In this document: positions 51,485-57,861 of the stretch, one piece after another
Layout: every line of letters begins with the position of its first letter
Position numbering within the stretch: position 1 is the stretch's first letter
DNA from: Paeniglutamicibacter kerguelensis
GTDB lineage: Bacteria > Actinomycetota > Actinomycetes > Actinomycetales > Micrococcaceae
Direction of reading: 5' to 3'
Length of the DNA: 64,000 bases
NCBI RefSeq assembly: GCF_017876535.1
Contig: NZ_JAGIOF010000001.1
Coordinates: 1,426,001 to 1,490,000 of the forward strand
Position numbers and translations under genes: made by a program
The notes under the pieces: generated by a model
What the model was told of the DNA's origin: nothing
The model's database searches: none
What the model saw: only the letters and a program-made list of their open reading frames with translations

Positions 51485-51930
51485 CCCGATGTGATTCAGT
51501 GCAAATACACCACCCAGCAGAGAAATTGACAGTATCTAACTGCTGGATATTTGGCTTCCGGGTGCGACGGTGGGGGATCAGCCTACGAACTCCCAATGGG
51601 GTCCGATCGTTGCGGAAATCTGTTCCAAATGTTGCAGCGGGGATGGCCTTTTTGAAGCAGGACCTGCTGCGTCCTATTTGATTCCGCAGAGGTCTTTTGC
51701 ACTGCCGACCAGCGATGTTCCATTTCCAAAAACCTGGGACATGAGCACGTTCATCCGGTCGCGGCAAGGTCGACCTTGCGAGCGCTCTGCTGAGAACATG
51801 TAAAAATGTCAGTCGTCATCGATTCCTGTCATGGGCAGAAAGACTTGGGGGGACAAGTGATGCCGCACCCTACGTATTTCAGCATCTCCAGATATGGCCG
51901 GTCTTCCTTGTAACTGCTTGGAGAAGGCAC
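51485..51930. other. stretch without a supported gene
   Basis: A 104-codon minus-strand frame (51453-51767) overlaps the desaturase fragment but has no recognisable family or coding composition. The DNA is noticeably less GC-rich than the chromosome average. Confidence 0.4.
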
Positions 51931-52014
51931 CTAGATCGCTGAAACGATCCAGATCACCAAGGCAATGACCGCAAGAACGCCCACAATTGTCCAAATAAGG
52001 CTGCTTCCACGCAT
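51931..52014 (-). CDS. 27-residue single-span membrane protein, copy 1
   Basis: The frame from the ATG at 52014 reads MRGSSLIWTIVGVLAVIALV followed by IWIVSAI and TAG. It is one hydrophobic helix with a basic N-terminus, so N-terminus in. GGAAG lies nine bases before the ATG. A second gene with 23 of 27 identical residues lies at 57493-57576, and the differences are conservative or silent, which argues that the peptide is selected. Flanking sequence is also shared: the 60 bases upstream (ACTTCCGTT...CTTCTCATCA) and ~20 bases downstream. Function unknown; too short for routine gene calling. Confidence 0.65.
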   Translation of the reverse strand: MRGSSLIWTIVGVLAVIALVIWIVSAI

Positions 52015-52148
52015 GTTGCTGACTTCCGTTCAATTCGTTGCTACTTCTCATCATCGGCTTGCGGGGCCTTCAATTCAAGGAATGCGCGAACGGAACGAAA
52101 GGTCTCCCAAACCTTGAATCCACGCCGGTGCCGCCATAGCGTGGGCCC

Positions 52149-52583
52149 ATGGATTTATCGATACAGGTCACCCTCGATTGCACCGATCCGCACACGCAGG
52201 CCGCATGGTGGGCGCAGACGCTCGGCTGGACGGTTGAGCCGATCGAGCCGGGCTTCATCAGGAAAATGGTCGACGCCGGCCAGGCCTCCGAGGCCGACAC
52301 CATGGACTTCAACGGGGAGCTTGTCTGGAGGATCGGCGCCGGGATCTGCCCGGTGGACCAGGTGGGGCAGATGCCGCGGCAACGCATGGTCTTCCAGCGG
52401 GCGCCCGAGCCCAAGACCGTGAAGAACCGCATGCATCTGGACCTGCACCCGGGCACGGACAAGGATGTGCAGCGCGAGCAATTGATCGCGCGCGGGGCCC
52501 GCTTCCTGTATGCGGGGAACCAGGGGCCGTTCACCTGGTACGCCATGGCCGACCCGGAGGACAACGAGTTCTGTATTTCCTGA
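52149..52583 (+). CDS. VOC (glyoxalase-like) protein
   Basis: A 144-residue protein of the vicinal-oxygen-chelate superfamily, Glyoxalase_6 type: QVTLDCTDPHTQAAWWAQTLGW at the start, KNRMHLDLHPGTD in the middle (likely metal-binding histidine) and WYAMADPEDNEFCIS at the end. Such proteins bind or modify small molecules; no substrate can be named. Single gene followed by a hairpin shared with convergent pepN. Confidence 0.85.
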   Translation: MDLSIQVTLDCTDPHTQAAWWAQTLGWTVEPIEPGFIRKMVDAGQASEADTMDFNGELVWRIGAGICPVDQVGQMPRQRMVFQRAPEPKTVKNRMHLDLHPGTDKDVQREQLIARGARFLYAGNQGPFTWYAMADPEDNEFCIS

Positions 52584-52618
52584 GCCCGCCGGCGCCAAGA
52601 GGAGCCTGTCCGAACGCA

Positions 52619-52652
52619 GTCGGGGCGGCGGAACGAATCCCGCCACCCCGAC
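52619..52652. terminator. hairpin between the VOC and pepN genes
   Basis: GTCGGGG (52619-52625) pairs with CCCCGAC (52646-52652) and GGCGG with CCGCC inside, around one C/A mismatch and an eight-base loop. It lies between convergent genes. Confidence 0.65.
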
Positions 52653-52714
52653 ATCGGTGCCTGTGACTAAGGCACCATGTGCTTAGTGCACGCGATGTTT
52701 GGTCCGCTCCGAAT

Positions 52715-55393
52715 CTAGCGTGCGGACTCCAGCGCGTGCAATACATGGCCAACGCAGAGACGCTGGGCCGCCAGCGAACGCACCAGTGCGTCGCGCTCTT
52801 CCAGCAGGATCCGGCGCAGCGCCCGCGGGGCGGCCGGGTGCTCCTGAAGCCAAGAGTCGACTTCCAGCACCACGGGGTGGACCTTCGCGTCGCCAAGGTT
52901 CTGCGAGGCTGGGAAGAGCCCGCGGATCACGCGTGTGGCCAGGCCCATGGTCAGCGTTTCCCAGATGTCCTCGAGGGACGGCCAGTAGGCGGCGTAGTGT
53001 GCATCGAGCAGCTCGTGGCCGCCGAGCTGGAAGCCCGCGGCGGTTGCGCTGATCGCCTCGTTGGACAACGCCGCGCCGTTGGCGTCGTGGCCGGAGATGA
53101 CCGCCCCGAATGCCGCGGCCTTCACCGCCGCGTCGGGGCGGGCCGCCAGCGCCAGCAGGCGGCCGGAGGTTGCAACGGCGGACGGATGTGCCGCCGCGTC
53201 CGCTTCCATGGCTGCACGCGCTGCCTCGTCGAGGCGTCCGGTGGCGGCCTTTGCCTGCCACAGGGCCCAGCGCAGGTCCTCGTCGACAACCAGGGAATCC
53301 CAGCGCGGTTCACCTGCCAGCAGCGAATCCACGACGTCGGTGGCCACGTGGCCGCGGGCCAGCTTCGCCAGCGCGCGGGCCATTGCGATCTGCGCGTCGC
53401 TGCCCGGATTTGCCCGGTCCAGCCAGGTGACAAGCGCGTCGGCAAGCGCCTGGCGTTCGTCGGCCCGCAATTCGGGTGGCAGGTATTGTCCGATTGCGGT
53501 GTTGGCCTGTTCAAGCAGGAAGGCGAAGACCGAGACCTCGGTGACCGATTCGGCGTGGGCGCGGACTGCGGCGAGGAAGTCCGTGGCCGCAAGCCTTGCA
53601 TCGCGGACCATGTTCCACAGCGCGGCCCAGCAGCTGGCGCGCGCCAGCGGATCCCCGAGCGTGCCCAGGTGGCCCAGGAGCGTTTCCAGGGAGCGTTCAT
53701 CGAACGCGACCATGGCGTAGGTGGCGTCGCCGTCGTTGGGCAGGATGAGATCCGGGCATCGTTCGCCGGCCAGGAAGTCGAGGGCGACCCCGGTTCCGGT
53801 GAGTTCCACCGCGTGGCTGGCGGTGCGGGTCAGCTCGCCGTCCACCAGGTCGAAGAGGCCGACGTTGAGCACGTGCGGGTGGGTGATCGGGGTGTTGGTC
53901 AGCGGGTCGATGCCGGACTGGGTGAGCCGCGCCGCGGTGACCAGCCCCTCTGATTCGGTGAGTTCGATGCCCAGCACCGGGACGCCGGCCGTCTTCAGCC
54001 AGGCATCGGCCCAGGAGTCCATGTTGCGTCCCGAGGCATCCTCGAGAACCGCAAGGAAATCCTTCAGCGAGGTGTTGGAGAATTCGTGGACGCGGAAGTA
54101 CTTGCGCGAGGCGTCGCGGAACGCTTCGGCGCCGACGTAGGCGGCGAGCTGCTTGAGCACCGAGGCGCCCTTGGCGTAGGTAATGCCGTCGAAGTTCTGC
54201 TTGGCGGCTTCGAGGTCGGTGATGTCGGCGACGATCGGGTGCGTGGTGGGCAGCTGGTCCGCGACGTAGGCCCAGCCCTTGCGGCGGTTGGCGAAGGTGA
54301 TCCAGGCGGTGGAGAACTCCGTGGCCTCGTCGTTGGCCAGGGTGCCGATGTAGTCGGCGAAGGACTCCTTGAGCCAGAGGTCATCCCACCAGCTCATGGT
54401 GACAAGGTCGCCGAACCACATGTGGGCCATCTCGTGCATGATGGTATTCGCGCGGGTCTCGTGCTGACCCTCGGTTGCGCGCGAGGTGAAGACGTAGCCC
54501 TCCGTGAACGTGACCAGGCCCGGGTTTTCCATGGCGCCAAGGTTGTACTCCGGCACGAACGCCGAATCGTATTTGCCCCACGGGTAGGGGTAGTCGAAGA
54601 GCTCGTGGAAGAAGTCGAGTCCGGTCTTGGTCAGGTCCAAGATGTTTTGCGCGTCGAAGTGCGTGGCGATCGAGGCGCGGCAGGTGGCGTTCAACGGGAT
54701 GACCAGTTCGCTGCCGTCGGACAGCGTGCGGGAGTAGCTGTCGGTGGCCACGAAGTAGGGCCCGGCAAGCACCGCGGTGATGTAGGTGGAGATCGGCAGG
54801 GTCGGGGCGAAGTTGGTGGTCGCGGTGCCGTCCCCGTGCTCTTCGACACCGGAGGCCGACTGGTTGGAGGCTACGTGCCATTCCCGGGGCGCGCGCACCG
54901 TGAAGGTGAATGGGGCTTTCAGGTCCGGCTGCTCGAAGTTGGCGTAGACGCGGCGGGCGTCGGAGGGCTCGAACTGCGTGTAGCAATATGTCAGGCCGTC
55001 GGCCGGGTCGACGTAACGGTGCAGGCCCTCGCCGCTGCGCGAGTAGTAAGCCGTGCCGTCGACAACAAGCGTGTTGGGGGAGTCCTCACCCGGGAGCAGG
55101 TTTTCGAGGTAAATGCGGGAACCGGTCACGGCAGTTGCGGGGTCGACAGCCACGCCGTTGAGCGTAATGGAACGGATGGATTCGTGGATGAAGTCCACGA
55201 AGGTTTCGGTCGTTTCCTCGGCGGAGAACACGATCGTGGTGGTGGACCTGTAGCCGGTCACCGAGGCATCGCGGGCCTCCGAAAGGTCTAGTTTCACCTG
55301 ATAGGAATGCACGTCAAGGGTCTGCGCGCGCCATGCCGCTTCATCGCGGGAGAGGTTTTCGTTCGGGCCGGAGATTCTCTGTAACTGATCCAC
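52715..55393 (-). CDS. pepN: aminopeptidase N
   Basis: An 892-residue M1-family metallo-aminopeptidase. GAMEN (substrate recognition) is followed by HEMAHMWFGDLVTMSWWDDLWLKESF with the zinc ligands HExxH-x18-E, both near residues 290-340. The N-terminal beta domain begins near SRDEAAWRAQTLDVHSYQVKLDL, and the C-terminal ~450 residues are the ERAP1-like helical domain typical of actinobacterial PepN. It cleaves N-terminal residues from peptides in the cytoplasm. The start is uncertain: GTG at 55393 keeps the conserved N-terminus with few extra residues, but has no clear ribosome-binding site; an ATG at 55483 would add 30 residues. Confidence 0.92.
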   Translation of the reverse strand: MDQLQRISGPNENLSRDEAAWRAQTLDVHSYQVKLDLSEARDASVTGYRSTTTIVFSAEETTETFVDFIHESIRSITLNGVAVDPATAVTGSRIYLENLLPGEDSPNTLVVDGTAYYSRSGEGLHRYVDPADGLTYCYTQFEPSDARRVYANFEQPDLKAPFTFTVRAPREWHVASNQSASGVEEHGDGTATTNFAPTLPISTYITAVLAGPYFVATDSYSRTLSDGSELVIPLNATCRASIATHFDAQNILDLTKTGLDFFHELFDYPYPWGKYDSAFVPEYNLGAMENPGLVTFTEGYVFTSRATEGQHETRANTIMHEMAHMWFGDLVTMSWWDDLWLKESFADYIGTLANDEATEFSTAWITFANRRKGWAYVADQLPTTHPIVADITDLEAAKQNFDGITYAKGASVLKQLAAYVGAEAFRDASRKYFRVHEFSNTSLKDFLAVLEDASGRNMDSWADAWLKTAGVPVLGIELTESEGLVTAARLTQSGIDPLTNTPITHPHVLNVGLFDLVDGELTRTASHAVELTGTGVALDFLAGERCPDLILPNDGDATYAMVAFDERSLETLLGHLGTLGDPLARASCWAALWNMVRDARLAATDFLAAVRAHAESVTEVSVFAFLLEQANTAIGQYLPPELRADERQALADALVTWLDRANPGSDAQIAMARALAKLARGHVATDVVDSLLAGEPRWDSLVVDEDLRWALWQAKAATGRLDEAARAAMEADAAAHPSAVATSGRLLALAARPDAAVKAAAFGAVISGHDANGAALSNEAISATAAGFQLGGHELLDAHYAAYWPSLEDIWETLTMGLATRVIRGLFPASQNLGDAKVHPVVLEVDSWLQEHPAAPRALRRILLEERDALVRSLAAQRLCVGHVLHALESAR

Positions 55394-56212
55394 CAGACCA
55401 TTGAAACATGAAAGGAGCGCTTGACAATATTGCGAGGCAAAATTGTCGCAAATACGCCACCATGTTGCGTCGCGCGGTGTCATAGACGTGAAGCGGGGGA
55501 CGCGAGGCGTGGTTCCAGGTAGCCGGGGGACAACGGTGAGAAACGTGGGGAACCGTGGTTGCGGCGTCCCTCTCGTCGTGATGTTGAGGTGGGAGTTTCC
55601 TTGACGGAGAGGGACCAGAGCTCAGTGGGGCAGGCTCCGGGAAAGGGCATGCCCGGCCGGTTGAGCGCGATGGCTTAGCGGGCCTTGGCTCCTGCCCTTC
55701 TCACGGGTTGTGCCAACCAGCCCTTGCGGTCTGCTGCTCATGGTGCGGCCGGAATTTTTCTGGTCGGGGAATCCCGATTCCAGTAGTCATTTCAGAAGGC
55801 GCCTCAAGACGCGTACATGCGTGCGAACTGTCGAATTCCGTTCGGGCCGGTCAAAAGCGTTTCAGGACCCGAATGGCGCGCGTTGAAGGTTACGAGGAGT
55901 GTTGGTTTCAAACCCCACGAACGGCGAGCGCGGAGCATGGACAATAGCGCGGGTGTGCTTCGGGCACCCCCTATCGGAGCGGGCTCAAGTAGGGAGTGCC
56001 CCTCAGCGCAAACTTGAAGGTGAGACGTGCTTAAACACGAGTTGGGAAACGTTTCGCTGCCGGCATTCCATTTGTGGTCCCTACTCCTCCCTACTCGCAT
56101 CTTTACAGGCAGCCTGCGGGTAAGCAATGCTGAATACGCCGTGACTAGTCGACACGCGGCAAGGCGGCTTTGGGTGTCGGAGGCAGTACACAAATGAAGA
56201 AGGCGATGGCCC
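55394..56212. other. 820-bp stretch without a supported gene
   Basis: It contains the pepN promoter region at its left end. Frames up to 147 codons on the minus strand have non-coding composition. Inverted arms GTCCCTCTC and GAGAGGGAC occur near 55567 and 55607. I looked for a tRNA near the TTTCAAACCCC sequence around 55908 and could not fold one. Confidence 0.4.
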
Positions 56213-57229
56213 ATGGATGAGATCCGGTTGCGCGTGAAAGACGCCATACGATCGAGTCAGCGCGGATTGAACCAGTCGTTAATCGCCCGCGAGATCGGCA
56301 TGAGCACGGACGCCCTGAGTCGTTCGCTCAATGGACAGCGGAACTTCAATGCGGGGGAACTTGCGAGGCTCGCAAATGTACTGGAAGTTTCCCTGGGATG
56401 GTTGATCACCGGCGATCCGCGTCCCGATAGCTACGTGGACGAATCGATGGATCCAGTCCCTTGGCGTCGCGACCAAATTGCGGAAACGGTTGCATTTCCT
56501 GCGGGGGCGTATCGGGAAGTCGGACTTACCACTGGTTCGATTCCGCATTTGGATCCTGAAATAACGCCGGAATCGGCGGCTGGCATTGTCGCAAGAGACC
56601 TCAGTGAGCTTCTCGACTTTCCCTTCGTTCACGATCTCCCGGCTGCGATCGAAGGATGCTATGGCGTTGGTGTATTCGTGGCTGCAGAAGGACCAGACTT
56701 TGATGCCCGCGCCATGCGCAACAGAGACCTGACATACATTGTGGTGCGCGCTACCGGTGCCTGGTACCAAGCCAATTTGGTGCTTGCACGTGAACTCGGA
56801 GAATTGCTGAGTGGACGGCAATCAGTCATTGGCCAGCGAGGCCTAGAACCCGCCAACTGGCCAAACGAGTTTGCATTGGCCCTATTGATGCCCGCCGAGC
56901 GGTTGCTCAAGATCGACTGGGATCGACAGACTCCGCGAGAACTTGCAAATTTCCTCTGGGAGTCCGGAGTCTCGGCCAAGGCCCTGATGCGAAGGCTGGA
57001 TGGACTTGGCATACGCAGGGGCCCGGCGCTGGTTCACGCCGACGAGGGGACATTGCAGCTTCTGGTCTGGCAAGATCCCGACTGCCTGAGCCATAACAGG
57101 GCAAGAGCTTATCGTTCCCCCCGGATTCCCTTTGACCTCTTCAGTGCACATCTAAAGGGAATGCGCGAAGGACGCGTCGACGGGACTTCGCTTGCCTGGA
57201 TGTTGGATACTCCACTTGCGGAGCTGTGA
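56213..57229 (+). CDS. XRE regulator fused to a degenerate ImmA/IrrE-like domain
   Basis: A 338-residue protein. Residues ~1-70 are a helix-turn-helix: LNQSLIAREIGMSTDALSRSLNGQRNF and LARLANVLEVSLGWLITGD. Residues ~120-290 resemble the ImmA/IrrE (DUF955) metallopeptidase: DLPAAIEGCYGVGVFVAAEG and then LVLARELGELLSG, at the position where active members have HELGHLLxG. Both zinc histidines are replaced (by R and E), so it is probably not a protease. Active relatives cleave repressors or sense DNA damage; this one may act only by binding. Composition is less GC-rich than the chromosome genes, in line with transfer. Its last ~40 bases are repeated 464 bases downstream. Confidence 0.72.
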   Translation: MDEIRLRVKDAIRSSQRGLNQSLIAREIGMSTDALSRSLNGQRNFNAGELARLANVLEVSLGWLITGDPRPDSYVDESMDPVPWRRDQIAETVAFPAGAYREVGLTTGSIPHLDPEITPESAAGIVARDLSELLDFPFVHDLPAAIEGCYGVGVFVAAEGPDFDARAMRNRDLTYIVVRATGAWYQANLVLARELGELLSGRQSVIGQRGLEPANWPNEFALALLMPAERLLKIDWDRQTPRELANFLWESGVSAKALMRRLDGLGIRRGPALVHADEGTLQLLVWQDPDCLSHNRARAYRSPRIPFDLFSAHLKGMREGRVDGTSLAWMLDTPLAEL

Positions 57230-57335
57230 GGCCTACCGACGGCTCGCACATAACGAACCGAGGCGTTGTCCTGTGAACTGCTTTCGGTCGACGCAAACAC
57301 GAAGGATTCATCCGTGCGCCGCAATGATTTTGGCC
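57191..57335. repeat. diverged direct repeat, copy A
   Basis: About 145 bases, starting CTTGCCTGGATGTTGGATAC inside the 3' end of the XRE gene, recur at 57655-57801 with roughly 75-80 % identity by eye, ending around CATCCGTGCGCCGCARTGAT. Confidence 0.7.
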
Positions 57336-57492
57336 TTGGATTTTGTTCGCGGCGCGGCAAATGACAGTAGGCAGCGACTTCCGTCAGGACAAAATGGCTT
57401 GGACTACGAGTAACCCTTGTATGCCAAGCCATTCCCGAAGTCGTGCCTCCAGCTGTGGTCTGGCCTCTGCGCGACTACTCAGGGAAATCGTC

Positions 57493-57576
57493 CTAGATCG
57501 CCGAAGCGATCCAGATCACCAGTGCTACGGCCACAAGAACGCCCACGATTGTCCAAACAAGGCTGCTTCCACGCAT
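57493..57576 (-). CDS. 27-residue single-span membrane protein, copy 2
   Basis: The frame from the ATG at 57576 reads MRGSSLVWTIVGVLVAVALV followed by IWIASAI and TAG, a near-identical paralogue of the peptide at 51931-52014. GGAAG lies ten bases before the ATG, as in copy 1. The upstream ~60 bases (CTTACTTCCGTT...CTTCTCATCAC) are also shared. The gene lies between two diverged direct repeats of the XRE 3' end, pointing to duplication of a small cassette. Confidence 0.65.
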   Translation of the reverse strand: MRGSSLVWTIVGVLVAVALVIWIASAI

Positions 57577-57654
57577 TTTACTTACTTCCGTTCTATTCGT
57601 TGTTCCTTCTCATCACCGGCCTGCGGAACCTCCAATTCAAGACGGGGGAATTTG

Positions 57655-57801
57655 CTTGCCTGGATGTTGGATACTCCGCTTGCGGAGCTGTGTTCCCTAC
57701 CGGCGGTTCACACCTAGCGGAACCGGGGTTCTTGTTCCGTGATCTGGTTTTGGCCGACACAGTCTCGAAGGCTTCATCCGTGCGCCGCAGTGATGGTGGC
57801 C
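57655..57801. repeat. diverged direct repeat, copy B
   Basis: Second copy of the 57191-57335 block. It repeats the last ~40 bases of the XRE gene (with A-to-G at one place and a changed stop) and ~100 bases of what follows. The spacing of the two copies is 464 bases, with the small membrane protein gene between. Confidence 0.7.
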
Positions 57802-57861
57802 TGGCATTCCGGTGAGTGGATCGATGATGAAGAATTCTTCCTCGATGCCAAAAGTACGCAT
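57802..57861 (-). pseudogene. N-terminal stub of a GCS2-family carboxylate-amine ligase
   Basis: From the ATG at 57861 the frame reads MRTFGIEEEFFIIDPLTGMP, the exact type of N-terminus found in YbdK/GCS2 glutamate-cysteine-ligase-like enzymes (MRTFGVEEE...DPxTG). An AGGTG-like ribosome-binding site precedes it. After ~20 codons the frame enters repeat copy B and loses all similarity, so the enzyme was truncated where the repeat joined. Confidence 0.55.

Follow-up and report, generated by a model that had tools for sequence, protein, structure and literature searches.

A largely undescribed family of short, putatively single-span membrane peptides in Actinobacteria, with relatives in phages

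The window copies and their paralogues

The stretch of DNA analysed here (the window) comprises 64,000 nucleotides (nt) of the Paeniglutamicibacter kerguelensis genome and contains two copies of a gene for a 27-residue, putatively single-span membrane peptide (Table 1). Copy 1 encodes MRGSSLIWTIVGVLAVIALVIWIVSAI and copy 2 MRGSSLVWTIVGVLVAVALVIWIASAI, each followed by a TAG stop codon. The first-pass annotation, made from the letters of the window alone, had described two frames of this length, preceded by GGAAG at a suitable spacing and by a shared upstream sequence of about 60 bases, and all of this holds: both frames consist of 27 codons and a stop, GGAAGT lies 13–8 nt 5′ of the ATG in both copies, and about 65 nt of upstream sequence form, together with the frame, a 150-nt repeat unit that is 86% identical between the two. 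The peptides differ at 5 residues, in every case by an exchange of one hydrophobic residue for another, and the synonymous (pS) and nonsynonymous (pN) differences per site are 0.24 and 0.09. With its 27 residues, nearly all hydrophobic from residue 6 onwards (by reading of the sequence, not by a span predictor), the peptide belongs to the class of small single-span proteins, that is, those with <50 residues and one hydrophobic span; it carries a single arginine close to the N terminus, and residues 8 and 22 are tryptophans.

Both window copies are real, but a count of two is too low for the genome, in which a whole-genome search with the DNA or the peptide returns six copies, five of them intact (start, frame and stop). 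Three of the additional copies lie within ∼31 kb of each other, on the same contig as the window copies. Mean pS and pN over the five intact copies are 0.29 and 0.08, so that the paralogues within this genome are also under selection.

Table 1. Positions of the peptide genes and associated features (window coordinates unless a contig, C1 or C4, is given)
Feature	Position	Strand	Remark
Copy 1, 27-residue single-span peptide gene, stop included	51931..52014	-	sequence reading
Copy 2, 27-residue single-span peptide gene, stop included	57493..57576	-	sequence reading
Ribosome-binding site GGAAGT, copy 1	52022..52027	-	
Ribosome-binding site GGAAGT, copy 2	57584..57589	-	
Promoter-like site, copy 1	52050..52078	-	TTGAAT (52078-52073), 17 nt, GATGAT (52055-52050)
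Promoter-like site, copy 2	57612..57640	-	TTGAAT (57640-57635), 17 nt, GGTGAT (57617-57612); weak score 5.0
Imperfect terminator-like hairpin downstream of copy 2	57391..57435	-	17-nt arms
Repeat unit, copy 1	51930..52079	-	matches 57492-57641
Repeat unit, copy 2	57492..57641	-	matches 51930-52079
Copy outside the window	C1:1850620		
Copy outside the window	C1:1861756		AAG replacing ATG
Copy outside the window	C1:1881853		
Copy outside the window	C4:288594		other contig

Selection on the frame and distribution of the family

In total, 52 copies were read with their flanks (50 fetched loci and the two window copies): 47 intact ones of 27 codons, an intact 24-codon form (L107) and four decayed copies. 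Codon-level comparison of the copies, a check that the first-pass annotation had proposed, was carried out over the 47 copies, leaving out the four decayed ones and L107, whose position was missed. These 47 represent 39 distinct genes and 32 distinct peptides, and they show purifying selection: mean pN/pS is 0.196 in the coding frame, but 1.39 and 1.82 when the other two forward frames are read and 1.02, 0.36 and 3.32 for the reverse frames. Entropies at the three codon positions are 0.43, 0.16 and 1.14, the third position being the most variable. Across 31 members, M1, R2, G3, W8, T9, I10, V11, G12, L14, A18, L19, I21 and I23 are invariant; the core of the peptide reads W-T-I-V-G-[VI]-L and lengths are mostly 24–27 residues. 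By eye, the sequence 3′ of the stop codon diverges at once between genera. The coding frame is thus conserved and under selection as such, and we have next to no doubt that this is a real protein-coding family. Stops or frameshifts at homologous loci had been named beforehand as what would speak against the frame, and stops or lost starts do occur, in 4 of the 52 copies only, beside 47 intact ones and L107: L103 has lost its start, L108 contains two stops, and L109 and L110 have no stop and an altered core. The decayed copies are spread one each over P. kerguelensis and three further genomes (G195, G012 and G013); G195 has no other strong copy, and the other three genomes keep strong ones.

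Searching actinobacterial genomes with the peptide, likewise suggested at first pass, recovered homologues in several groups. Within the genus, 13 of 15 genomes match at E ≤ 1, 11 of them strongly (E < 1e-7), the two weakest matches (E = 0.5 and 0.7) being doubtful. A profile search of the host family found matches in 43 of 295 genomes at E ≤ 0.01, six of which probably reflect chance similarity to spans within longer frames and were set aside; the remaining 37 (E ≤ 1.6e-7) come from 7 of 32 genera, and one of them, G195, carries its decayed copy only. Since these 37 genomes match at this level and the frame is under purifying selection, the pair in the window is more than a chance resemblance. 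Carriers include Arthrobacter mobilis, A. psychrochitiniphilus, Zafaria cholistanensis and Agrococcus baldri. Strong matches were also obtained for 9 of 10 genomes of a second genus, six of which have two copies, and a third genus, from another family, has a shorter form in 8 of 9 genomes, with eight loci read in seven genomes all encoding 24 residues. Further out, matches thin: 14 of 396 genomes drawn from the order match (11 convincing, P. kerguelensis included) and 4 of 394 from the class (3 convincing), and the two draws from the phylum gave 2 of 296 and 9 of 396, where only P. kerguelensis itself and one distant genome, G1273 (peptide MPRGGIWTVVGVLLAIALLIWIIQAL), are convincing. Probable chance spans in longer frames account for 2 of 13 matches in the genus, 3 of 14 in the order, 1 of 4 in the class and 7 of 9 in the second phylum draw.

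Such short frames had been expected to be missed by annotation, and for the 31 members no NCBIfam model scores better than E = 0.13, no Pfam model better than 0.016 (hence none below 0.01), and no Protein Data Bank sequence matches at E ≤ 10. Literature searches by peptide motif and by the topic of small membrane proteins returned no paper on the family, the broader listings having been judged by title.

Expression signals and gene neighbourhood

Promoters, ribosome-binding sites and folding of the start region were analysed at 33 of the 47 loci, after near-identical upstream regions had been dropped. With a sigma-70-like promoter model, which is only rough for these hosts, the score peaks 50–31 nt before the start codon, where it averages 7.2 and exceeds 5 at 24 of 33 loci; in 40 random control sets the mean is 0.6 and at most 7 of 33 exceed 5, a contrast that is inflated because these controls are mostly coding and G+C-rich. 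A ribosome-binding site with at least 5 of 6 matches is present at 29 of 33 loci, as compared to 13% of 2000 control stretches. At 24 of 33 loci, the start region (folded as 40 nt of upstream sequence plus the frame only) is more open than shuffled sequences. Downstream, a hairpin with z < −2 falls within 75 nt in 23 of the 47 copies versus 16 of 215 control segments. Copy 1 is followed by a hairpin with 7-nt arms only, and all six copies of its genome score low in the hairpin scan (6.1 to 12.7, as compared to 14 to 26 in most strong ones), as do several copies elsewhere (e.g., L070, L074, L085, L086, L090, L100 and L112); the hairpin is therefore not universal. Taken together, a promoter-like site, a ribosome-binding site and often a hairpin suggest a stand-alone transcription unit.

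In several other copies a hairpin lies near +140, and its arms appear, by eye and without a count of pairs, to vary in concert from copy to copy. Such covariation, along with the conserved 5′ region, is what a conserved small regulatory RNA with an incidental frame would show in part of the family. We find this account hardly credible, given that variation concentrates at third codon positions, that in-frame pN/pS is close to 0.2 and that it is the flanks, not the peptide, that diverge between genera. No Rfam family matches in the window at its gathering threshold. Separately, we noted by eye an inverted repeat, CTTCTC-N13-GAGAAG or variants with paired changes, ∼35–60 nt before the start of L064, L067, L072, L081, L087, L092, L103 and L108; in this part of the family the promoter region may possibly hold an operator or a leader hairpin.

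The neighbours of the gene in Micrococcaceae include, by Pfam, GCS2 (YbdK-like), ferritin-like (Dps-like), pyridoxal phosphate (PLP)-dependent decarboxylase and NDK genes, with others named by eye. Clustering of the 438 proteins called at 52 loci gave 12 clusters shared by two or three genera, all at changing distance or strand, and the idea of a conserved operon partner in Micrococcaceae was rejected on these grounds. The largest of them, a PLP-dependent enzyme, occurs at 8 loci in three genera, and the closest approach to a shared order is this enzyme together with an adjoining gene, upstream on the same strand at 4 loci of two genera, at distances of 0.2 and 3.4 kb. The idea of a stress island, raised by neighbours that look stress-related by eye, was also dropped: of the 75 neighbours examined at 14 loci in two genera, at most two match any one Pfam family, and no enrichment is claimed in either direction.

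A second actinobacterial family shows a different arrangement: here the peptide gene lies between prmC and sua5, on the opposite strand, within a prfA-prmC-sua5-glyA cluster (Pfam names from one locus, L175), and the distance to the prfA frame stays the same at 11 of the 12 loci, which belong to four genera, and differs only for the second copy in one genome. This constancy of place indicates vertical descent in that family. Small accessory subunits of membrane complexes have precedents in KdpF, CydX and AcrZ, and a fixed subunit of one transporter, oxidase or ATP synthase would agree with the very strongly conserved N-terminal half and with the prfA-prmC/sua5-glyA setting, where an atpB-like frame (by eye) lies a few kb away. 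The gene runs on the strand opposite to that cluster, though, and sits elsewhere in Micrococcaceae, where neighbouring families shift or fail to recur as described above; six copies in one genome and further copies in phages would also be odd for a fixed subunit, so that we consider this role unlikely.

Several features were observed in the immediate surroundings of copy 2. It is flanked by a direct repeat (57182-57342 and 57646-57808), parts of which, 77 and 74 nt long, are 79% and 85% identical at a distance of ∼465 nt, and of which the genome holds no further copy at E ≤ 0.01. A helix-turn-helix protein (PF01381) encoded at 56213-57229 (+) adjoins it and has a weak, below cut-off match to ImmA/IrrE-like peptidases (PF06114). 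Upstream, at 57802-57861 (-), lies the cut-off start of a YbdK-like glutamate-cysteine ligase frame, MRTFGIEEEFFIIDPLTGMP (named by eye), which shares a 59-base match with C1:1948578. In another genus, an intact GCS2 gene (PF04107) adjoins the peptide gene at L090, and at L070 a frame resembling that gene lies 0.9–1.4 kb upstream, which brings to three the peptide loci near ybdK pieces (window copy 2, L070 and L090).

Phage relatives and candidate functions

A scan of a phage protein family library yielded one match, phrog_34999, a 23-residue family annotated as of unknown function. Copy 2, the window copy scanned, matches positions 6–22 of the 23 profile positions (E = 4.2e-5, 24.3 bits), L115, a member from the second actinobacterial family, matches at 6.2e-7, and a peptide of Streptomyces phage Jay2Jay (L133) at 4.3e-17. 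The latter is annotated as gp150 (AIW02630.1) between tRNA-Ala and tRNA-Lys genes; in Streptomyces phage Larnav, no gene is annotated at the corresponding place. The earlier proposal of an undescribed small-membrane-protein family therefore stands as regards conservation, codon-level selection, near-fixed length and ribosome-binding site, but needs amending in that a phage branch was already catalogued: the family is largely undescribed, with a catalogued phage branch of unassigned function. The bacterial gene itself is chromosomal, and fixed in place in one family, and is thus not classed as phage-encoded. No phage family was found by Pfam in ten frames around the window copies, a scan that did not extend to the phage library, and searches of phages and plasmids with tblastn gave no match, which is not evidence of absence since the phage collection does contain relatives.

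In viral contigs, 39 stretches carry the DNA pattern of the core, of which 18 encode peptides of this kind (15 distinct; 17 of the 18 have 19–31 residues and one has 49); the other 21, with no short peptide of the family type, were set aside. The pattern also occurs within an 88-residue viral frame that has IIWTIVGVLW in its second half (L199, L201, L204, L207, L216 and L217) and looks unrelated. The charges at the ends of the relatives L131, L134, L182, L227 and L233 are inconsistent by eye, some being basic only after the span or also there, and membrane orientation may not be fixed across the family.

The scan of phage neighbours covered four of the 15 distinct peptides (L131, L134, L132 and L128, the last with one neighbour). 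At L131 and L134, matches to endolysin/transglycosylase, the small membrane protein phrog_9990 and Rz-like spanins are followed by the peptide as the next gene found, and DNA related to L131 is annotated in a Sphingomonas phage as Rz-Rz1, following endolysin and holin. This would fit a lysis-associated peptide of phage origin, holin- or antiholin-like, that bacteria have domesticated. Yet no lysis gene was recognised among the scanned neighbours of L132 and L128, the Sphingomonas phage lysis stretch contains no such peptide, and in the Streptomyces phages the peptide is flanked by tRNA genes. With lysis genes beside two of the four scanned peptides and unseen at the other two, the association is a lead, not a rule, and we judge a lysis origin quite improbable. 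More remote still is the idea that bacteria and phages share one micropeptide family in which the host copies act against phages, the host helix pairing with the phage helix in the membrane and so shifting the timing of lysis or blocking takeover; if true, it would explain both the repeated host copies and the position of some phage copies directly after spanin genes.

Phage relatives would also suit a chromosomal type I toxin, a hydrophobic peptide that depolarises the membrane and is silenced by an antisense RNA, with multiple and decayed copies reflecting toxin turnover. Type I toxins such as ZorO, Ibs and Ldr are short and hydrophobic and may be multi-copy, as is the small, single-span peptide described here, and antisense promoter scores reach 4.76 (above 5 at 14 of 33 loci, with a random control mean of 0.6). 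They form no single peak, however, like that on the sense strand (7.22, 24 of 33 loci). In toxin mRNAs the ribosome-binding site is sequestered; here the start region is open. Nor are typical toxins known to show the fixed place seen in 11 of 12 loci of one family or the presence in most genomes of three genera. We therefore regard a toxin as rather unlikely.

The explanation that we consider best, with roughly even chances of being correct, is a single-span regulatory membrane peptide comparable to YohP of Escherichia coli; by analogy, we rank such a role above an accessory subunit, a type I toxin or a domesticated phage peptide in likelihood. Each gene would most likely form a transcript of its own, starting from a sigma-70-type promoter ∼40 nt ahead of the start codon, with translation from an accessible ribosome-binding site and, often, termination at a hairpin. 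The peptide would probably insert into the inner membrane as one helix of ∼20 residues. The near invariance of its first half points to a specific contact, and this half could pack against a membrane partner or against itself; the peptide would then act as a membrane-embedded regulator that shifts the membrane or a transporter into another state, much as YohP lowers the membrane potential and quietens metabolism. Extra copies would arise by duplication, some of them decaying. That the peptide is translated, inserts into the membrane, packs there as a helix and has a regulatory role is inferred.

Several points weigh against this explanation: 1) the phage resemblance is short (∼24 residues) and hydrophobic, such that convergence is possible; 2) the promoter contrast is inflated, and bins elsewhere score up to 4.5 on the sense and 4.8 on the antisense strand; 3) 24 of 47 copies have no hairpin at z < −2 in the first 75 nt downstream; 4) conserved residues do not line one face of the helix (p = 0.73), a candidate feature that was rejected; 5) no neighbour holds the same place in different Micrococcaceae genera, so there is no partner to name; 6) most sampled relatives do without the gene, which is present in only 37 of 295 family genomes; and 7) the likeness to YohP rests on length and a single span, its function being carried over by analogy.

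Proteins this short often escape annotation, as the 31 members with no model match and the unannotated Larnav relative illustrate. Presence in most genomes of three actinobacterial genera, clear selection and phage look-alikes make the family a testable case for single-span micropeptides outside E. coli, and its defined core and near-fixed length make it easy to search for elsewhere.

Among known systems, YmiA (NF000536), the sole NCBIfam family listed for copy 1, is likewise short and single-span and draws weak matches from 9 of 31 members, more than any other NCBIfam family, but copy 1 scores 8.9 bits against a curated cut-off of 30 and is not a member. Closer is phrog_34999, which shares the W-T-I-V-G-[VI]-L core and the size class with the bacterial family and differs from it in being phage-borne and in a profile four residues shorter, the Jay2Jay peptide starting with MGNNT and lacking MRGS. 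YohP comes from a different phylum; it is a single-span protein of 27 residues, the same length as the peptides in the window, that lowers the membrane potential and brings about metabolic quiescence (PMC12719787).

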